From Streptomyces sp. NBC_01707 (GTDB lineage: Bacteria; Actinomycetota; Actinomycetes; Streptomycetales; Streptomycetaceae): a stretch of DNA of 64,000 nt. The stretch's first letter is position 1; every line of letters begins with the position of its first letter. Under the pieces are notes generated by a model. The model was not told where the DNA came from and did no database searches. It was given only the letters and a program-made list of their open reading frames with translations. This document shows, piece by piece, positions 16,024 to 28,193 of this stretch. Made by a program: the position numbers and the translations under genes. Location: the NCBI RefSeq assembly GCF_041438805.1, contig NZ_CP109190.1, positions 8,308,001 to 8,372,000 of the forward strand, read 5' to 3'.

Positions 16024-18501
16024 TCACATCGTGTGGGGCGTGGCGAGTTCGGTCCAGATGGTCTTGCCGTTCGGGGTGTAACGGGTGCCCCAGCGTTGGG
16101 TGAGCTGGGCGACGAGGAACAGACCACGGCCGCCCTCGTCGTCCGCTCCGGCGCGACGCAGACGAGGTGAGGTGCTGCTGCTGTCGGAGACCTCACAGAT
16201 GAGGTCGGTGCCGCGGATCAGCCGGAGCCGGATCGGCGGAAGGCCGTAGCGGATGGCGTTGGTGACCAGTTCGCTGACCACCAGTTCGGCGATGAACGAG
16301 ATCTCCTTCAGACCCCACTCGGTCAGCTTCCGTGCGGCCAGGGACCGGGCCTCCACGACGAGCGCCGGGTCGGCGGCCAGGTCCCAGGACGCGACGCGGT
16401 CTGCCCCCAGGGCGTGGGTGCGGGCCACCAGGAGCGCGACGTCGTCCGGTGGCCGGAGGGGGAGCAGGGTGGCGGCCACCTGGTCGCAGATCTGCTCGAG
16501 CGGGCGGTCGGGATGGGACAGGCTGCGCCGCAGTGCCTGAAGCCCGACGTCGATGTCGGGGTCCCGTCCCAGGAGGAGTCCGTTGGTGAAGAGGGCGAGC
16601 ACCGTTCCGTCCGCGAGATCCAGCTCGGTGGTCTCGAAGGGCATGCCGCCCAGGCCCAGTGGCGGCCCCGCGGGCAGGTGCGGGAACTCGACGTTGCCGT
16701 CGGGGTGCACCACCGCGGGCGGGTAGTGGCCGGCGGAGGCCAGGGTGCAGCGTCGCTCGACCGGGTCGTAGACCGCGTACAGGCAGGTGGTCCCTGTGAC
16801 GGTGCCGGCGGTCGGCGGGGAGCCGGAGGAACCGTCCTCCTCGGCGAGCCGGACCACCAGGTCGTCGAGGTGCGTGAGCAGCTCGTCCGGGGGGACGTCG
16901 AGGTCGGCGAGGGTGTTCACGGCGGTACGCAGCCGCCCCATGGTGGCGGAGGCGTGGATGCCGTGTCCGGGGACGTCGCCGACGACCAGGGCGACTCGGG
17001 CGCCGGAGAGCGGGATGACATCGAACCAGTCGCCTCCCACGTCGCTCTCCGCGCCGGCCGGTCGGTAGCGTGCGGCGACCTCGACGGCGTGGAGTTCGGG
17101 CAGCTCGCTGGGGAGCAGTCTGCGTTGCAGGGCCAGGGAGGCGGCGCTTTCACGGGTGTAGCGGCGGGCGTTGTCGATGCACACGGCGGCCCGGGAGGCC
17201 AGTTCCGCCGAGAGGGTGAGGTCCTCGTCGTCGAACGGGTCCGGTTGCTGCCACCGGTAGAAGCTGGCCACGCCCATCAGGACGTTCCGGGCGGCCAGAG
17301 GAACCACCATCAGGGAGTGCGCGCCGGCGGCTCGGAGTCCCACCACCCGCCGGGCATCGTCCCGCAACCAGTCGGCGGTGTAGTCCAGTCTGGCGACGAG
17401 GCGGGATTCGAGGTCGGCCATGCAACGGGCCTGCGGCGAGGAAGAGGCGAACCGGCTCAGCTCGCCGACCGCGTACGCCGCCCGGGAGTGCCCGCGCCAG
17501 GTGGACCGAAATGCCGCCCGGCGGAGCGTGACGCTGTCTTCGACCGGACCCGGCTCGGGTGCCTCGCCCTCCACGACGGCGTCCAGCAGATCGACGGCGA
17601 CGGTGTCGGCCAACCGGGGGACGGCCACCTCGGCCAGTTCCTGCGCGGTCCGCATGACGTCCAGGGTGGTGCCGATGTGCAGACTGGCCTCGTTGAGCAG
17701 AGTTCTCCGTTCCTGGGCCCGGTAACTGGCGGTGACGTCGATGACCGCGTGGCACAGCCCGAGGACGGCTCCGGCCGGGTCCTGGAGCCGGAAGGTACTG
17801 GTGGACCACACATGCTCGTGTTCCGGGTCGGCGACGGTGCGCCCGCGGTGCACAAAGTCCATGGTCGGTACGCCGGTGTCCAGGACCTGCTGCATCTGCG
17901 TCTCGATGGCCTCGGCGCTCAGGCCCGGCAGTGCCTCACCGATCCGTTTGCCCAGCCGTTCCGTCGTCGGTATGCCGGTCATGCGTTCCAGGGCCACATT
18001 GCGCCGTACGCATCGCAATTCGGTATCGGTGACCAGCAGGCCGACGGGTGACTGGGAGAAGAGTCCCTCCATGACCGCCTGGTCGCCTTCCCAGCGGCGC
18101 ATCTGGGCAGCCTCGACGGCCAGGACCACCCAGTGCGGCGCGGCCCCGGGGCCTTCGGGGCCGGTCGAGGGGTACGCCCACAGGACCAGCTCCAGCAGTC
18201 GGCCGTCCCCGCAGCGCACGGTCACGTCCGCGGACCGTACCTCCGGCACCCCTCGCAGCGCGCGCCGTGTTGCGGCGACCACGGCCGGCTCGGGCCGGGC
18301 GAGCAGTTCGAGGGCGGGCCGGCCCAGAACCTGGGCCGCCGGACGGCCCAGCAGCCGTTCGGCAGCCGGGCTCCACCGGACAACGACACCTCGGGAATCC
18401 AGCACAGCGGTCGCCGCCACCTCGGCGCCGACGACCGCATCACTCCCCTGGCTGCCTCCGGTGTTCCGTGCCATCCGCGCCGTCCCACAACTTTCGATCA
18501 T
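16024..18501 (-). CDS. PAS-PAS-GAF-SpoIIE phosphatase with C-terminal anti-sigma-type ATPase domain
   Basis: 825-residue multidomain regulator, with no membrane segment seen. Order: PAS 1 (about 20-130, AVLDSRGVVVRWSPAAERLL), PAS 2 (about 145-270, LFSQSPVGLLVTDTELRCVR), GAF (about 280-430, around SLHIGTTLDV), PP2C/SpoIIE phosphatase (about 445-680, EVAARYRPAGAESDVGGDWF and VGDVPGHGIHASATMGRLR), HATPase_c of the RsbW type (about 690-825, VVSELVTNAIRYG and DEGGRGLFLVAQL). Such proteins control partner-switching circuits by dephosphorylating anti-anti-sigma factors and phosphorylating them through the ATPase domain. ATG 18501 (GAGGG upstream) was chosen; ATG 18474 is an alternative. No partner gene is adjacent. 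Confidence 0.9.
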   Translation of the reverse strand: MIESCGTARMARNTGGSQGSDAVVGAEVAATAVLDSRGVVVRWSPAAERLLGRPAAQVLGRPALELLARPEPAVVAATRRALRGVPEVRSADVTVRCGDGRLLELVLWAYPSTGPEGPGAAPHWVVLAVEAAQMRRWEGDQAVMEGLFSQSPVGLLVTDTELRCVRRNVALERMTGIPTTERLGKRIGEALPGLSAEAIETQMQQVLDTGVPTMDFVHRGRTVADPEHEHVWSTSTFRLQDPAGAVLGLCHAVIDVTASYRAQERRTLLNEASLHIGTTLDVMRTAQELAEVAVPRLADTVAVDLLDAVVEGEAPEPGPVEDSVTLRRAAFRSTWRGHSRAAYAVGELSRFASSSPQARCMADLESRLVARLDYTADWLRDDARRVVGLRAAGAHSLMVVPLAARNVLMGVASFYRWQQPDPFDDEDLTLSAELASRAAVCIDNARRYTRESAASLALQRRLLPSELPELHAVEVAARYRPAGAESDVGGDWFDVIPLSGARVALVVGDVPGHGIHASATMGRLRTAVNTLADLDVPPDELLTHLDDLVVRLAEEDGSSGSPPTAGTVTGTTCLYAVYDPVERRCTLASAGHYPPAVVHPDGNVEFPHLPAGPPLGLGGMPFETTELDLADGTVLALFTNGLLLGRDPDIDVGLQALRRSLSHPDRPLEQICDQVAATLLPLRPPDDVALLVARTHALGADRVASWDLAADPALVVEARSLAARKLTEWGLKEISFIAELVVSELVTNAIRYGLPPIRLRLIRGTDLICEVSDSSSTSPRLRRAGADDEGGRGLFLVAQLTQRWGTRYTPNGKTIWTELATPHTM

Positions 18502-19007
18502 GGCCGCAGCCCTCGTCGGCAGCGTATTCCCGATCCGATGGAAGCGCTCCGTACGGGCCGTGCCCGGAGTGCACGGCCAGGGCACGCACGGCTGCGACCG
18601 GACGGCGCCCGGTGCACCGGTCGAGCGCCGAATGATCAGTGGTGGTCATGGCCGCCCCAGAGGTCTTCGTGGCTGACCGGGCGTGGGGCGGGGCACGGGA
18701 GACACCCGCCGGCCGTCCGAGCGGACGGCCGGCGGGCCCACAACCCGCGGAGCGCCCCACCTGCCGGCACGGGCCCCGGTCCCGGTGAGCGCGCGGCCGA
18801 CGCGCCTCTTCCGTGGCACACCCGCACTGCTGCCCGGCTGCGAGCCGAACCCTCGAACCCGGACCAAGTCCCGCTGCGCCTCTCAGACTTTGACGTTTCT
18901 TTACAACCCGATGCTGGGCCGCGTCGTCTCTGTTCGCGAATCCCGGATCGGCCGGCCCGGTCTCCGCCCATGGGGCCGGCGGCCGCCCTGAGGAGAGGGA
19001 GCAGGAC
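18502..19007. other. Divergent intergenic region before the sortase operon
   Basis: 506 bp with no gene seen. It must hold the promoters of the phosphatase gene and of the DUF4232-sortase-sigma operon; the latter has GGAGAGGGAGCAGG as ribosome site. A TTTGACG followed by an A/T-rich stretch lies at 18889-18905. Confidence 0.5.
18905..18928 (+). promoter_or_regulatory. Candidate ECF-sigma promoter of the sortase operon
   Basis: AACC (18905-18908) and CGTC (18925-18928) are 16 bp apart, the layout of many ECF promoters (AAC motif at -35, CGTC at -10), about 80 bp before the first gene. This would make the operon's sigma factor autoregulatory. The motif is short and could be chance. Confidence 0.3.
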
Positions 19008-19730
19008 ATGCGCAAGGGACCACTCGCCGCCGGTGCGGCGGCCGCAGCCGTCGCCGTGTTCACCGTCGTCCCCGCGACGGCGGCCGTGCCCGGACAAGAG
19101 ACATCCAGCACGCCGATGTGCGCGACCTCGCAGTTGACGGGCTCGCTCGGCGCCGGCGACGCCGGCGCGGGGAACCTCTACCGCTACCTGGTGCTGACCA
19201 ACCGCAGTTCGACGACCTGCCACCTCACCGGCTTCCCCGGTGTGTCACTGCTGGACGCCTCCGGCCGGCAGATCGGTCCGGCCGCGACCCGCGAGCACAC
19301 GTCGTACGAGCCGGTGACTCTGAAGCCGGGCGGCTCGGCCAGCGACACCGTCCACACCGTCAACCATCAGGGCACCTGCCTGCCCACCTCCACCCGGGTG
19401 CGGGTCTACCCACCCGGCAACACCGCGTCACTGGTCCTCGTCGGCGCGATCACCAACTGCCACAGCGTGCTGAGCATCACGCCGCTCGCCGCGGGCACCG
19501 GCGGCAACCCCGCGGGTTCCTCGCCGAGCAGCGGCGCCACCGCCGGAGCAGGATCCGGCGGGCAGGTCACCGCTGTGCCCAGCGGCGCACCGGACACCGG
19601 GACGGCCGCCATCTCCACCGGCGGGGCCCGTCCCGGCAGGGCCCTCGGTGCAGCAGCGGGTGGAGTGCTGGCACTCGGCGGTGCCGGTTTCGCGGTGGCG
19701 CTGCGGCGTCGGGCGTGGGGCCGGGGCTGA
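19008..19730 (+). CDS. Exported DUF4232 protein with sortase-like C-terminal signal
   Basis: 240 residues. Signal peptide 1-26. The DUF4232 domain covers about 36-165 with four cysteines (38, 71, 124, 151), likely two disulfides. A Gly/Ser/Ala/Thr-rich linker follows, containing APDTG at 194-198, an LPXTG-like motif, then a hydrophobic segment (about 213-231) and a basic tail ALRRRAWGRG. This is the shape of a sortase substrate, though the motif is 14 residues from the membrane segment and starts with Ala. It is the first gene of a four-gene operon; the next gene, 3 bp away, is a class F sortase. Its domain is closely similar to the one in the fourth gene. Ligand unknown. Confidence 0.82.
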   Translation: MRKGPLAAGAAAAAVAVFTVVPATAAVPGQETSSTPMCATSQLTGSLGAGDAGAGNLYRYLVLTNRSSTTCHLTGFPGVSLLDASGRQIGPAATREHTSYEPVTLKPGGSASDTVHTVNHQGTCLPTSTRVRVYPPGNTASLVLVGAITNCHSVLSITPLAAGTGGNPAGSSPSSGATAGAGSGGQVTAVPSGAPDTGTAAISTGGARPGRALGAAAGGVLALGGAGFAVALRRRAWGRG

Positions 19731-19733
19731 GCG

Positions 19734-20387
19734 TTGAGCGCCCTCGCCCCACCCGTGTACCGGCTCCGTGGCCGTACGGCGATCGCGCTCACCGCGGCCG
19801 CTCTCACCCTCATCAGCGGCTGCACGCCGACTGCGCCCGCCCCCGAGGCGTCCTCCAGCAGTGCCGCGGTCTCCGCGCCGCCCGGCACCACCGCCTCGGC
19901 CCAGCCGGCCGCGGTCCGCGCCATGGCGCGCTCACTCCCCGAGCGGCTGCGCATCCCGCTGATCGGCGTCGACACCGCCGTGATGTCTTTGGGCCTGCTC
20001 GCCGACGGTGAGGTGGCCGTGCCGCCGATCGCCGCGCACGCACCCGCGGGCTGGTACGACGGCTCGCCGACGCCCGGCCAGACGGGGCCGTCGGTGATCC
20101 TCGGCCACGTCACCGTCGGCAGGTACGGGGACGGGGTCTTCAAGCAGCTGCCCCGATTGCGTGCGGGCGACCGGGTGTCGGTCACCCGCATGGACGGCTC
20201 GGAGGCGACGTTCGCCGTGGACTCGGTGCAGACGGTGGCCAAGACAAGATTCCCGACGCAGCGTGTGTACGGGAACGTCGACCACCCCGCGCTGCGTCTC
20301 ATCACCTGCGGCGGCACCCGGGTCGGCGCAGCCGGCGGCTACTCGGACAACGTCATCGTCTACGCCTCGCTGGTCGCCGCGTCGTGA
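19734..20387 (+). CDS. Class F sortase
   Basis: 217 residues, extracytoplasmic and lipid- or membrane-anchored: a hydrophobic N-terminus ends in the lipobox-like LISGC (Cys30). The sortase core is complete: His125 in ILGHVTVG, Cys192 in LITCGG and Arg196 before GYSDNVIVY. Class F sortases are the stand-alone actinobacterial type that cleave LPXTG-like signals and join proteins to the wall or another acceptor. The TTG start lies 3 bp after the upstream stop codon, so coupling is likely; no better start is visible. The stop overlaps the sigma gene by 4 bp (GTGA). Confidence 0.9.
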   Translation: MSALAPPVYRLRGRTAIALTAAALTLISGCTPTAPAPEASSSSAAVSAPPGTTASAQPAAVRAMARSLPERLRIPLIGVDTAVMSLGLLADGEVAVPPIAAHAPAGWYDGSPTPGQTGPSVILGHVTVGRYGDGVFKQLPRLRAGDRVSVTRMDGSEATFAVDSVQTVAKTRFPTQRVYGNVDHPALRLITCGGTRVGAAGGYSDNVIVYASLVAAS

Positions 20388-20941
20388 GCGGGGAGCGGGC
20401 AGTCGCCTTGCCGGCCGGCACGACGGGTGTCACGACAGGAGGGAGGCGAGCGGCCATCCGGTCTCAAGAGCGCGCGGCTTCCGAACTGTTCGCGGCCGTC
20501 TACCCGCGGCTGGCGGGCTGGGTGCGCCGGCTGGTGGAGGACGACGAGACCGCGCACGAGATAGCCGCGGAGGCGTTCACCCGCTTGTGGGCACGCTGGG
20601 CCAGGGTCGAGGAGCCCCGCGGCTTCCTCTATGTGACCGCGGCGAACCTGGTCCGCGACCACTGGCGCAAACTGGAGCGTGAACGCGGGGCCATGCGCCG
20701 TGTCACCGCCCAGGAACAGCGGAAGCAGCACGACGAGACCGATCCTTCCGTACGCATGCTGGTGCAGTCGCTGCCCGCGCGGCTGCGCAACCCCGCCCTG
20801 CTGTACTACTACGCCGATCTGCCGGTACGTGAGGTGGCCAGGCTGCTGGGTCGCAGGGAAGGAACCGTCAAGGCCGATCTGCACGCGGCCCGCGAACTGC
20901 TCCGCGCCGAGCTCGGGGGACACCATGACCGGATCGCCTGA
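20384..20941 (+). CDS. ECF-type RNA polymerase sigma factor
   Basis: 185 residues. Region 2 is recognisable: ELFAAVYPRLAGWVRRLVED, HEIAAEAFTRLWARW, PRGFLYVTAANLVRDHWRK. Region 4 has SLPARLRNPALLYYYADL, then EVARLLGRREGTVKADLHAA, the -35-binding HTH. GTG start overlaps the sortase stop codon (GTGA). The following membrane DUF4232 gene overlaps its end by 17 bp, the typical position for an anti-sigma factor. Sequence is consistent with an ECF group that responds to an envelope signal; target promoters are unknown apart from the candidate at 18905-18928. Confidence 0.9.
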   Translation: MSGERAVALPAGTTGVTTGGRRAAIRSQERAASELFAAVYPRLAGWVRRLVEDDETAHEIAAEAFTRLWARWARVEEPRGFLYVTAANLVRDHWRKLERERGAMRRVTAQEQRKQHDETDPSVRMLVQSLPARLRNPALLYYYADLPVREVARLLGRREGTVKADLHAARELLRAELGGHHDRIA

Positions 20942-21785
20942 CGACCGTGAGGACGGCGACCTGACCGGACGGCTGGATGCCGGCCGGGCCGACCCGCTGG
21001 AGCCGCTGCTGCGGCCGCCGGCCACCTACCTGGCCACTCCGCCCGGCACCTTCCACCGCATCCGCCGCCGGGCCGCGCGCCGCAGGCGGGCCCGGGCGGT
21101 GATGGTGGCTGCGGCGGCCGCCGCGGTGCTCGGCGGGGCGCCGTACCTGTTCGGGGTGATGTCCACGAACGGTGGCGACGAGCTGGTCGTACCCACCGTC
21201 ACCGGTACGCGGACCGGCCCGCACCCGTCCTTGCCCAGCCCCTCCACCTCTCCTTCCGCCCCTTCGCACCCGACCGACCCGACCCCCACCCACCACGCGC
21301 CGAGTGCCCCGTCCGCCGGCACGACCGGTGCTTCCGGCCGCACAGTCGGCCCGTCCGGTCGCACGCCGGGTACCTCACCGATGTGCACCGCTTCGCAGCT
21401 CACCGCCTCGCTCGGCGGCGGCGACGCCGGTGCGGGCAACCTCTACCGGTACCTCGTGCTCACGAACCGTACGTCCGGTGCGTGCCAGGTCTCCGGATAC
21501 CCGGGGCTGTCCCTGCTGGACGCGGGCGGAAAGCAGATCGGCGCACCGGCGACACGCGACCGCAGGACGTACGCACCGGTGGTCCTGGAGCCCGGCGGCT
21601 CCGCGAGCGTCACGATCCACACCATCAATCGGCAGGGGGAGTGCCTGCCCACGTCGGCGCGGTTGCGGGTCTACCCCCCGGGCGACACCGCATCGCTGGT
21701 GATCCCGGGAGAGATCACCACTTGCGACGACCGGTTCAGCGTCACGCCGTTCGCCGACGGTACGTCAGGGAACCCGCCGGCGTGA
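20925..21785 (+). CDS. Membrane DUF4232 protein, candidate anti-sigma factor/sensor
   Basis: 286 residues. The N-terminal 57 residues are cytoplasmic and charged (DPLEPLLRPPATYLATPPGT, then an RIRRRAARRRRAR stop-transfer-like stretch), followed by one membrane segment (about 58-78), a Pro/Ser/Thr-rich stalk to about 150 and an external DUF4232 domain with four cysteines (154, 187, 240, 267). The external domain is almost collinear with that of the first gene (both read GNLYRYLVLTNR). There is no visible zinc-finger anti-sigma motif, so the anti-sigma role is inferred from position and topology. ATG 20925 has GGGGGA upstream. Confidence 0.78.
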   Translation: MTGSPDDREDGDLTGRLDAGRADPLEPLLRPPATYLATPPGTFHRIRRRAARRRRARAVMVAAAAAAVLGGAPYLFGVMSTNGGDELVVPTVTGTRTGPHPSLPSPSTSPSAPSHPTDPTPTHHAPSAPSAGTTGASGRTVGPSGRTPGTSPMCTASQLTASLGGGDAGAGNLYRYLVLTNRTSGACQVSGYPGLSLLDAGGKQIGAPATRDRRTYAPVVLEPGGSASVTIHTINRQGECLPTSARLRVYPPGDTASLVIPGEITTCDDRFSVTPFADGTSGNPPA

Positions 21786-23858: not shown

Positions 23859-24220
23859 CGCCGTGTCCCGACATGGCATGCGGCGGCAGCTTTGAACGGC
23901 GCCCGTCATGCGCTCGCCAGGGCCCTGCTGGAGGGCGGGAGCCCGCCAGGTGTCGGCGCCCCGGTGGCCGTCGGAGGTGGTGGCCTTGTCGATGCGGTGC
24001 CGCCCGGCGGCGATCGACGCGCACCCGGCCGCCACGAAGAATCCGCTGCCGATTCCGACCCACCGGTACGGCCTCGACCGGCACGTCGGAGCCAGGTCGG
24101 CTGATCAGGTGCCGATACCGCGATTCTGCGTAATCCCTTCGAGTAATGCGTTACCCGTAAAGGGCGAACCGGAACAATAAGGGACGGGTGGCGGAAGGGA
24201 GACCGACGGGAGAGTGGTGC
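23859..24220. other. Intergenic region upstream of the qcrB-like gene
   Basis: 362 bp with no gene recognised. Its right part (24120-24180) is locally A/T-richer (GAGTAATGCGTTACC, GGAACAATAAGG) and probably holds the promoter of the cytochrome b gene. Confidence 0.4.
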
Positions 24221-25861
24221 ATGCCCCTGCGGAAACGTAAGGCGCAGCTGAAGACCCGGGCCGGGAAGGCGGCGGTCGACGGATACGGTGCGATGGATGC
24301 GCGCCTGCCCGTCAGCGAGCTGGCCAAGCAGTTGGTGCGCAAGGCCTTTCCCGACCACTGGTCCTTTCTCCTCGGCGAGATCGCCCTCTACTCGTTCGTC
24401 GTCCTGCTCCTCACCGGCGTGTACCTCACCCTGTTCTTCGACCCGAGCATGACGGAGAGCGTCTACACCGGTTCCTACGCGCCCCTGCAGGGCGTGAGGA
24501 TGACGCAGGCCTACACCACCACCCTCGCCATCAGCTTCGACGTGCGAGGAGGCCTGCTGATCCGTCAGATCCACCACTGGGCGGCACTCGTGTTCGTCGC
24601 CGCGATCTCCGTCCATTTGCTGCGGATCTTCTTCACCGGCGCCTTCCGTAAGCCGCGAGAGGCCAATTGGATCGTGGGCGTGACACTGTTCGTACTCGCG
24701 CTCCTCGAGGGATTCGCGGGCTACTCGCTGCCCGACGATCTGCTGTCCGGTACGGGCCTGAGGACGGCAGCCACCATTGTGGGGTCGATCCCCGTCGTCG
24801 GAACCTACGTGGAGATGTTCGTCTTCGGAGGGCAGTTCCCGGGCAACGACGTGATCCCTCGTCTGTACGCCGTGCACATCCTGCTCGTGCCCGGCCTGAT
24901 CGTGGCGCTGATCACCGCCCATCTCATGCTGGTGGCCTACCTCAAACACACCCACTGGGCGGGGCAGGGGAGGACCAACAGGAACGCCGTCGGTTCACCG
25001 GCCTTCCCGCAGTTCACCGCGAAGACCACGGGTTTCCTCCTCATGGTGTTCGGCGTACTGGCCCTGCTGGGCGGGCTCGCCCAGATCAACCCGGTATGGA
25101 ACTACGGTCCGTACCGCGCCGACCAGGTCTCCGGCGATGCGCAGCCGGACTGGTATGTCGGGTTCCTGGAGGGCGCGCTCCGGTTGATGCCGCCATGGGA
25201 GACCGACATCGCGGGTCACACCGTCATGTGGAATGTGTTCATTCCGACGCTCGTGCTGCCGGGCGTGGTCTTCACGCTGCTCTTCCTCTATCCCTTCTTC
25301 GAGCAGTGGGTGACGGGTGATCGCGGGGAGCACCATCTGTGCGACCGACCGCGCAACCGGCCGACCCGCACCGGGCTCGGCGTGGCGGCCATCGTCTTCT
25401 ACGCCGTTCTCCTGGTCGCCGGCGGCAACGACGTCGTCGCCTTCTCGTTCAGGGTTTCCATCGAGGTCATGACATGGATCCTCAGGATCGCGCTGGTCGT
25501 CGCCCCGCTCCTGGCGTTCGCGCTGACCAAGCGCCTCTGCCTCGCGCTTCAGATGCGGGACCGCCGCCGGCTGACCGAGGGCGAGGAGACCGGCCAGGTG
25601 ACCCAATCGGTGAACGGCGACCTCGCGGAGAGCCACCGCGGCCTGAGCCCGACAGCCCGCTACCGCATCCTGATGCGTGACGTCCCGACGCCCCTGGAGC
25701 TCCCGACGGAGGGCCCGGTCTCGCGTCGGCGACGGGTTCGGACCGCACTGAGCGGGTGGTACTACAGGGACTTCGTGGAGTTGCCGGCCACGGACGAGCA
25801 GCGGTCCCGGATCGCCGAGCGGACCGCGCCGCCGGATCCGGTTCGCGGGCCCGAGGACTGA
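24221..25861 (+). CDS. qcrB: Cytochrome b (QcrB-like) of a cytochrome bc complex
   Basis: About 546 residues with eight or nine membrane segments. Both haem b His pairs are visible: RQIHHWAALVFVAAISVHLL and YAVHILLVPGL with LITAHLMLVAYLKH. The Qo motif is PDWY in QPDWYVGFLEGALRLMP, the actinobacterial form of PEWY. The long C-terminal extension beyond the core (RYRILMRDVPTPLELP onward) is also typical of actinobacterial QcrB. It would oxidise menaquinol. No qcrC or qcrA gene is adjacent, so this is an orphan or second copy. Start uncertain: ATG 24221 has GGGAGAG upstream; GTG 24188 is also open. It converges on ctaF with only 9 bp between stops. Confidence 0.88.
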   Translation: MPLRKRKAQLKTRAGKAAVDGYGAMDARLPVSELAKQLVRKAFPDHWSFLLGEIALYSFVVLLLTGVYLTLFFDPSMTESVYTGSYAPLQGVRMTQAYTTTLAISFDVRGGLLIRQIHHWAALVFVAAISVHLLRIFFTGAFRKPREANWIVGVTLFVLALLEGFAGYSLPDDLLSGTGLRTAATIVGSIPVVGTYVEMFVFGGQFPGNDVIPRLYAVHILLVPGLIVALITAHLMLVAYLKHTHWAGQGRTNRNAVGSPAFPQFTAKTTGFLLMVFGVLALLGGLAQINPVWNYGPYRADQVSGDAQPDWYVGFLEGALRLMPPWETDIAGHTVMWNVFIPTLVLPGVVFTLLFLYPFFEQWVTGDRGEHHLCDRPRNRPTRTGLGVAAIVFYAVLLVAGGNDVVAFSFRVSIEVMTWILRIALVVAPLLAFALTKRLCLALQMRDRRRLTEGEETGQVTQSVNGDLAESHRGLSPTARYRILMRDVPTPLELPTEGPVSRRRRVRTALSGWYYRDFVELPATDEQRSRIAERTAPPDPVRGPED

Positions 25862-25870
25862 GAGCCGCCC

Positions 25871-26260
25871 TCAGCCCTGCACACGCGCGTACTGGAAGAC
25901 CATTCCGAACACCCCCGCCAGGGCCACGCCCATCCCGATCAGGAAGAGCCACAGACCGAACACCACACCGAGCGCGAGCAGGGCCGCCCCCGCGGCGGTC
26001 AGCGACGGCCAGATGCTGTGCGGAGAGAAGAAGTCCACCGGGCCGGACCGCTCATGGACCCTCCCGTCCCCGCGGTCCTCGGGGCGAAGTCCCTTCCTCC
26101 GGTAGTTGGTGGCGAAGAAGAACGCGACCAGCAGCGCCATGAGGAACGAGATGGTGAGCGCCGCCGTGCCCGTCGGATCCCGGGACCACACGGCGTAGAG
26201 AACATCGGTCACGAGAAAGAACCCCGCGACTCCGGCGAACAGAGTGGCCTCGATCTTCAT
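25871..26260 (-). CDS. ctaF: Cytochrome c oxidase subunit IV (CtaF-like)
   Basis: 129 residues with four hydrophobic segments (two near the N-terminus around [14 protein letters not shown] and [20 protein letters not shown], two near the C-terminus). The centre reads [19 protein letters not shown] and FFSPHSIWP, hallmarks of the actinobacterial subunit IV. It is an accessory subunit of the aa3 oxidase. Its ATG overlaps the ctaD stop in ATGA, so the two are translationally coupled. Confidence 0.9.
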
Positions 26261-27966
26261 TCGCCCGACTCCTCCTCGGCGCCCGAGACGGAGTGGTACC
26301 CGCCTCGGGCGAGGACCGGCTTCTCGGTCAGGGGGTGGTGCAGGTCGAAGGCCGGCGAGTCGGAACGTACGCGGGGCAAAGCCCGGAAATTGTGCCTCGG
26401 GGGTGGACAGGAGGTCGCCCACTCCAGCGAACGGCCGAACCCCCACGGGTCGTCCACGTGAACCTTCGGTGCGTAACGGGTGGTGTGCCACACGTTGTAC
26501 AGGAACGGCAGTGTCGACAGGCCCAGCACGAAGGAGCCGATGGACGAGATCGTATTGAGCAAGGTGAAGCCGTCCGCTGCCAGATAGTCGGCGTAACGAC
26601 GAGGCATTCCGGCTTCCCCCAGCCAGTGCTGGACCAGAAAGGTCAGTTGAAAGCCGACGAACAAGGTCCAGAAATGGATACGCCCGATCCGTTCGTCCAG
26701 CATGCGGCCGGTGAACTTGGGCCACCAGAAATAGAAACCGCCGAACATCGCGAAGACCACTGTGCCGAAGAGCACGTAATGGAGGTGGGCGACGATGAAG
26801 TACGAGTCGGTGAGGTGGAAGTCCAGCGGGGGCGAGGCGATCAGTACCCCGCTGAGGCCGCCGAGGAGAAATGTCACGAGGAAGCCGATCGCCCAGAGCA
26901 TGGGTGTCTCGAACGTGATGCTGCCGTGCCACATGGTGCCGATCCAGTTGAAGAACTTGACACCGGTGGGCACGGCGATGATGAACGACATGGCGGAGAA
27001 GAACGGCAGGAGAACGGCTCCCGTGGCGAACATGTGATGAGCCCAGACAACCGCCGAGAGCATGGTGATGCTGATCGTGGCCATCACCATTCCGAAATAC
27101 CCGAACATCGGCTTCCGGCTGAACGCGGGAATGATCTCGCTCACCACTCCGAAGAAGGGCAACGCGACGATGTAGACCTCGGGATGGCCGAAGAACCAGA
27201 ACAGGTGCTGCCACAGCAGTGCCCCGCCGTTGGCGGAGTCGAAGACATGCGCACCGAACTTCCGGTCGGCTTCGAGGACGAGCAGCGTGGCGGCGAGCAC
27301 CGGAAACGCGAGCAGCGCGAGGATCGAGGTGAACAGAACGTTCCAGGTGAAGATCGGCATCCGGAACATGGTCATACCGGGAGCGCGCAGACAGACGATC
27401 GTGGTGATGAAATTGACCGATGCCAGGGTCGTGCTGACCCCCGACAGCACCAGGCCCATGGTCCAGAGATCGCCGCCGGCGCCGGGCGAGAAGACGGCAC
27501 TGTTCAGCGGGGCGTAGGCGAACCAGCCGAAGTGCGCCGCGCCGCCGGGCACCACGAATCCGGACACCACGATGATTCCGCCGAACAGGAAGAGCCAGTA
27601 GGTGAGCGCGTTCAGGCGGGGGAAGGCCACGTCGGGCGCGCCGATCTGCAGCGGCATGATGGCGTTCGCGAAGCCGCCGAACATCGGCGTGGCGAACAGC
27701 AGCATCATGATGGTGCCGTGGATCGTGAACAGCTGGTTGTACTGTTCCGCGCTGACCATCTGAAGTCCTGGCCGGGCCAGCTCCGCCCGCATGAGCATGG
27801 CCAGCACTCCGCCCAGCAGGAAGAACCCGAACGCGGTGACCATGTAGAGATTGCCGATGACCTTGTGGTCCGTGGTCGTCAGCCACCCCATGAGTCTCAC
27901 ACCGGCAGCGATGCGCTTGTTGGCCACCGGCGCGGCCGGTGCGGCGTCCTGCAGGTCTTGCGCCAT
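26257..27966 (-). CDS. ctaD: Cytochrome c oxidase subunit I
   Basis: 569 residues, 12 membrane segments expected. Haem and copper ligands are in conserved blocks: [15 protein letters not shown] (low-spin haem His), [16 protein letters not shown] (CuB His and Tyr), [13 protein letters not shown] (CuB His pair), and [11 protein letters not shown] (haem a and a3 His). It reduces O2 to water while pumping protons. The ATG has GGAG 5 nt upstream. It pairs with ctaF, but ctaC (subunit II, CuA) and ctaE (subunit III) are absent here, so it must borrow them from elsewhere or act as a paralogue with changed partners. Confidence 0.95.
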
Positions 27967-28193
27967 CGGTTCTCCGTCCCTCCCGGTTGACTCGATGGTG
28001 GAGCCTGCGGGCAGGGACGGCCGTACGACTGGCGGTGTCACCCTCGAATTTCACCGGATCACCGGTGCTCCGCGCGGGCGTCCCGGGGTCCTGCCGGACG
28101 CTCCCGACGGATCTCGTCACCGGGCGAAGTCCGATGTGACACGCGGAACTGATCGGTGGCCGCCTCGTTCCGCGCAACCGGCACCGCAAGGAC

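Follow-up and report, generated by a model that had tools for sequence, protein, structure and literature searches.

How can a cell keep a surface protein, the enzyme that would anchor it and their regulator in step, and how can it keep two such arrangements apart when it carries both? The question is raised by four genes of Streptomyces sp. NBC_01707, which lie in a 64,000-nucleotide stretch of contig NZ_CP109190.1 (positions 8,308,001 to 8,372,000, forward strand), referred to here as the window. The genes, A to D, form a tight operon on the + strand and encode a DUF4232 protein with a sorting signal, a class F sortase, an extracytoplasmic function (ECF) sigma factor and a membrane DUF4232 protein. 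On balance, we favor reading the operon as a self-contained, autoregulated and insulated surface-display circuit in which the sensor domain is the sister of the domain in the product. The strongest result is the natural re-addressing of co-resident sigma circuits, in which the -35 element and residue 163 of the sigma factor change together. The features are located as follows, in window coordinates.

18888..18894, +, conserved upstream box CTTTGAC (read directly; column counts over 93 promoters)
18899..18908, +, predicted -35 element CTTTACAACC (relatives, own-genome scan, covariation with sigma residue 163)
18924..18931, +, predicted -10 element TCGTCTCT after a 15-nt spacer (relatives, own-genome scan)
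19008..19730, +, gene A, exported DUF4232 protein with a C-terminal sorting signal (open reading frame, Pfam; signal peptide by eye)
19119..19484, +, DUF4232 domain of A, residues 38-159 (Pfam)
19578..19601, +, sorting motif PSGAPDTG of A, ahead of a hydrophobic stretch and a basic tail (pattern search)
19734..20387, +, gene B, class F sortase with a TTG start, alternative GTG at 19755 (Pfam, NCBIfam)
19812..19823, +, lipobox-like ISGC of sortase B (read directly)
20384..20941, +, gene C, ECF sigma factor (Pfam, NCBIfam)
20870..20872, +, codon for sigma residue K163, the position that follows the -35 class (covariation)
20925..21785, +, gene D, predicted membrane anti-sigma factor (open reading frame, Pfam, structure model)
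21384..21752, +, DUF4232 domain of D, residues 154-276, predicted beta-sandwich (Pfam, structure model)

The earlier note on this DNA described four closely packed genes, and the layout is confirmed, with its domain calls borne out by Pfam and NCBIfam. Its start at 18905 falls within the predicted operon promoter (18899-18931). The gap between A and B is 3 nt with the TTG start and 24 nt if the GTG at 19755 starts B. C overlaps B by 4 nt and D overlaps C by 17 nt. The DUF4232 domains score 107.4 bits in A and 110.6 bits in D (cut-off 27), and B scores 85.1 bits with Pfam Sortase and 191.5 bits with the NCBIfam class_F_sortase model NF033748 (cut-off 166). C has 185 residues and contains sigma regions 2 and 4 only (Pfam Sigma70_r2 and r4_2, both above cut-offs). 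D is built, in order, of about 57 cytoplasmic residues, one membrane helix, a Pro/Ser/Thr linker and the DUF4232 domain; its closest named relatives are from Streptomyces, then from Streptomyces and Actinacidiphila. The 9.9-Mb genome (3 contigs) holds six DUF4232 matches, two of them in this operon.

The gene order recurs in relatives. The sigma factor is present in 63 of 199 same-genus genomes (own included), and a family search found it in 62 of 150 genomes and 5 of 17 genera, giving 139 distinct hits (63 same-genus and 83 family, 7 shared). The main set comprises 101 sigma loci, the window and L096-L195; 37 same-genus hits lie outside it, some of them seen with 1.5-kb flanks, and a second hit in genome G245 was added late as L278. 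With L176-L178, where no sortase was found, excluded from the order counts, 98 loci remain. A sortase precedes sigma in 97 of these, and A is recognizable in 95 by PxGAPxTG or near variants such as PRGAADTG; the other three are cut by contig ends. This recurrence is far beyond chance, and the order that the earlier note wished to see compared across genomes is thus conserved. The sole locus of the 98 lacking a sortase, L164 in genome G270, keeps A, a sigma factor with M163 and a changed promoter; the other operon of that genome has a sortase, which may serve L164. In 95 of 99 cases D begins 16 nt upstream of the final base of the sigma stop codon, its start being set by a script that takes the first in-frame start codon from 22 nt before that base.

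Two observations concern more distant sigma relatives. Outside the family (L258-L268), the gene after sigma often encodes a D-like protein whose ectodomain is of another, propeller-looking kind, and the 1.5-kb flanks show no sortase. One relative is located on the 927-kb Streptomyces fungicidicus plasmid NZ_CP023408.1 at 697529-697957, with 75.5% identity over 77% of the query sigma.

The promoter CTTTACAACC-N15-TCGTCTCT lies upstream of A and is conserved in most loci. It occurs once in the 9.9-Mb genome, even with 3 mismatches allowed in 18 bases, and the control gave 0. Among the 101 same-genus genomes scanned, 25 have exactly one exact site each; 24 of these sites adjoin sigma, and the remaining one (G063) is found before the A and sortase genes of that genome on another contig. 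The exact site is absent from all 72 same-genus genomes without sigma. Since the promoter is found once in the genome and its sites are confined to sigma-bearing genomes, sigma most likely has few targets here beyond its own operon, and it is very likely that sigma C drives that operon. The upstream box, CTTTGAC here and mostly CTTTGCC elsewhere, lies 11 nt upstream of the CTTT to which it corresponds in the -35 element, and two of its T columns are invariant in 93 of 93 promoters. This CTTTGCC-like box may serve another regulator. In the loci inspected, it is unchanged where the -35 class changes.

A third promoter site is seen in two genomes, G252 and G236, just upstream of a gene for an exported DUF4232 protein (87.3 and 80.9 bits; signal peptide by eye). 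As the two genomes are related, these sites represent one or two events. Both are canonical promoter sites, each before a single DUF4232 gene (L274 and L275), and the genomes belong to the Streptacidiphilus group. The extra sites point to DUF4232 proteins as a theme of the circuit, and they are neutral as to whether A and D share a ligand or A serves D as a decoy.

The covariation is best seen in the 21 genomes that carry two sigma hits each. Every one of them shows, at its operon without DUF4232, a -35 element of the form TTTRCAAT or TTTRCAGC in place of TTTRCAAC (18 loci from the main promoter table, L164, L159 through another contig of G236, and L278). The DUF4232 copy keeps AACC wherever it could be read, in 19 loci and in L156 (through another contig), that of G245 being unread. 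Single-copy operons without DUF4232 have AACC in 43 of 43 cases and a changed -35 in 0 of 43. Sigma residue 163 follows the promoter exactly: the two agree in 92 of 92 main-set loci, with AACC and K163 in 74 of 74, AATC or AATT and M163 in 8 of 8, and AGCA and R163 in 10 of 10. These counts cover the 92 of 98 loci with a readable promoter; the promoters of L164, G055, G096 and G027 were read separately, those of L156 and L159 through other G236 contigs (an inferred assignment) and that of L180 through another G063 contig, with L111 and L165 unread. L278 was fetched last as a check and was not used to find the rule; it has AGCA with R163. Its sigma match contains one internal stop codon, yet promoter and residue are like those of its kin.

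On a tree built without column 163 there are four promoter changes and four residue changes, and 4 of 4 independent pairs agree; the -35 change also agrees with genome sharing in 4 of 4 independent pairs. With a looser pattern, 20 two-operon genomes gave 40 sites (two in 16 genomes, one in 2 and three in 2) and one control match. Residue 163 sits in the helix that, in this sigma family, reads the -35 element. Co-resident operons are apparently insulated from each other by different -35 elements together with different residues at position 163. Orthogonal ECF sets are similar in that sigma circuits are insulated by -35/-10 specificity and residue-base rules are reported (PMC3817407 and PMC8103513). 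Unlike in those sets, insulation here seems natural, repeated and placed between co-resident copies of one module.

We next consider the protein that the operon would display. A is likely a sortase substrate, as the earlier note had supposed from an LPXTG-like motif, a membrane segment and a basic tail. The motif PSGAPDTG sits 42 residues before the C-terminus of A, and the corresponding distance is 38-45 residues in 79 A proteins. PxGAP[DN]TG has a single match in the own genome, in A, the GAADTG form not having been searched. No NCBIfam sorting-signal model matches A, and Pfam gives DUF4232 only. The catalytic His and Cys motifs are present in 97 of 97 sortases, that of the window included. 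The window sortase has Arg after the Cys motif (TCGGTR), while some relatives show His there. A lipobox-like motif, which is unusual for sortases, is found in 77 of the 97 with a strict pattern and in 93 with a looser one, and in 34 of 62 loci without DUF4232 a twin-arginine motif lies ahead of it.

Class F sortase roles are described as unknown (PMC13251363 and PMC6998099). In Actinoplanes missouriensis, the authors mention AMIS_11010 by srtF1 and AMIS_36440 by srtF4 as possible substrates, and a quadruple srtF mutant showed no phenotypic change (PMC13251363). The neighboring genes there resemble A in encoding a signal peptide, a membrane region and a basic tail. Unlike here, the available passages of PMC13251363 mention no sigma/anti-sigma pair at AMIS_11010 or AMIS_36440, and the two proteins were not taken as substrate candidates in that study.

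D occupies the anti-sigma slot and has a conserved N-terminal stretch, in line with the role given to it in the earlier note. The D model places helices at residues 26-29 and 42-69, the latter of which extends into the membrane part, with low to middling confidence. No class I (ZAS-type) anti-sigma domain was detected, since Pfam reports only DUF4232 and NCBIfam nothing at E 0.01, and an RsgI domain is likewise absent by Pfam. D may resemble class II anti-sigma factors such as CnrY (PMC7406223) in a short cytoplasmic part whose two expected helices would hold an ECF sigma factor. It is unlike them in giving no model match, in carrying a long linker and a DUF4232 domain, and in that its sigma binding is predicted. 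The SigI/RsgI systems of Clostridium thermocellum are also similar, with a single-pass anti-sigma factor that bears an outside sensor domain and a sigma factor that controls exported proteins (PMC12203970 and PMC4711584). They differ from the present operon, which has an ECF sigma factor, one predicted sortase substrate rather than many enzymes, and one promoter found. Sensor and product proteins of SigI/RsgI reportedly have common domain types.

The A and D domains of the window are 67% identical in protein and 74% in DNA, their four cysteines align and GNLYRYLVLTNR is common to both, so the near-collinearity reported in the earlier note is confirmed. On the domain tree, A and D domains make one supported clade apart from 30 other DUF4232 rows, one of which is identical with D of L177. 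This clade is not divided into A domains on one side and D domains on the other, and a constraint of D monophyly is rejected (p-AU 0.001). A and D of the same operon are more alike than A and D of different operons, with a mean identity of 0.715 vs 0.643 and a longest identical DNA run of 28.1 nt vs 20.2 nt (each reached in 0 of 10000 permutations; 30 operons, with L121 dropped for its short, frame-split domains). We read this as concerted evolution, in which the two domains of a lineage probably exchange sequence. The structure model of D is confident mainly over the DUF4232 beta-sandwich.

The domain pair is tied to one form of the operon. Among the 97 sortase loci, 31 carry DUF4232 in A as well as in D and 62 lack it in both; in the remaining 4 (L099, L111, L156 and L165, labeled as the DUF4232 type for the tree), contig ends make one side unreadable. 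The 62 are the 64 loci without DUF4232 minus the sortase-less L164 and L178, and A is only partly read in two of them (L159 and L180). By eye on the loci inspected, the A protein of these operons is exported, rich in Pro/Ser/Thr and equipped with the same sorting signal; the outside part of D is also Pro/Ser/Thr-rich. The DUF4232 operons form one group both on the sigma and sortase tree and on the sigma-only tree. Named carriers of the DUF4232 form are mainly Actinacidiphila and Streptacidiphilus, plus some records named Streptomyces. DUF4232 is a domain of unknown function, and a full-text search of the paper collection used here gave no paper that names it.

In the circuit that we favor, sigma C would drive the single promoter of its own operon and so yield A, the sortase, more sigma and D. 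Sortase B would attach A to the wall, and D in the membrane would hold sigma through its short N-terminal part in a class II-like manner. Because the outer domain of D is a sister copy of that of A, kept alike by exchange, D would sense what A binds, or A itself, as in SigI/RsgI, and this sensing would match the supply of A to need. Where a genome holds two operons, each has a -35 element of its own, and the residue at position 163 of the sigma factor differs to match. An extended form of the circuit, which we consider rather unlikely as a whole, has the D ectodomain read wall-anchored A, so that the operon measures sorted A, and has one of two co-resident circuits re-addressed by a single recognition-helix residue and its -35 element, keeping the two displays separate.

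Several findings weigh against the favored circuit. The core operon exists without DUF4232, in the 62 sortase loci that lack the domain in both A and D, and in L176 and L177 DUF4232 is present in D with no sortase or A found. As the DUF4232 type is one group on the tree, its joint presence in A and D counts as one event, not many. The window pair itself bears no mark of recent exchange: its longest identical DNA run is 13 nt, against a cross-operon mean of 18.3 nt, and its own D ranks 4th for A and its own A 17th for D. The A/D permutations take no account of relatedness or codon usage, and the domain trees were built from about 125 columns with bootstrap not settled. Likeness of the domains could also be maintained by passive gene conversion, with no function behind it. 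Pfam and NCBIfam give no anti-sigma model that matches D, and its fold matches are weak. The looser promoter pattern gives a second own-genome site, on contig 2, in a transposon-type-looking frame. Four of 29 sigma-bearing genomes lack the exact pattern; three of them (G027, G055 and G096) have a close variant ending in AACG with K163, and G045 is of a sortase-free type. A sign test on four independent pairs cannot fall below p 0.125.

These points bear differently on the other explanations. The earlier note proposed homotypic recognition, in which wall-anchored A is a decoy or ligand that binds the D ectodomain and the sorting state sets sigma activity. The idea is possible, since the two domains are sisters, occur together in 31 of 31 complete DUF4232 operons and exchange sequence. 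The exchange fits a shared ligand equally, however, and a sensor of a shared ligand explains the data as well; with the domain missing from A and D in so many sortase loci, and with a DUF4232 D occurring without A in L176 and L177, we regard recognition between the copies as rather unlikely. Of the surface-signaling circuit as then drawn, what stands is the order, A as a likely substrate, D in its slot and the paired, homogenized ectodomains; DUF4232 pairing as its core is disfavored.

The DUF4232 match may instead be incidental, the product of one duplication and passive gene conversion, with D sensing the envelope state through its linker or membrane part, as the Pro/Ser/Thr-rich forms of D would. 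In its favor, most operons examined do without DUF4232, and it would suit a DUF4232 type that is a single group, a spacing of about 2.3 kb between the two domains of the window, over which conversion is easy, and a window pair without recent exchange. We doubt it, given that the 31 complete loci, from two other genera and the window, have each retained the two copies, and that extra promoter sites precede exported DUF4232 proteins in two genomes. A sorting checkpoint, in which D detects either A that is still unsorted in the membrane or substrate-loaded sortase and the operon is induced when display lags, would need no outside ligand. It draws on the fact that the sortase shares a single autoregulated unit with the only substrate predicted for it, and it would also work for operons without DUF4232. 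By eye, no element is common to D and the sorting signal, and the second operon of G270 (L164) keeps A, sigma and promoter without a sortase, which makes a checkpoint quite improbable.

Upstream of the operon and divergent from it, at 16024-18585 (-), lies a gene for a large PAS/GAF/SpoIIE phosphatase with an ATPase domain. Downstream are a cytochrome b gene at 24188-25861 (+) and, at 25871-28189 (-), an open frame whose final part encodes a cytochrome c oxidase subunit IV domain.

The self-contained circuit, read in this way, links a class F sortase with a single predicted substrate and a sorting motif, and with a sigma factor and a promoter. As an ectodomain is common to A and D, DUF4232 becomes approachable through its regulation. 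The rule that connects residue 163 to the -35 element offers evidence, natural and repeated, of a route by which sigma circuits may be insulated once they have been copied.

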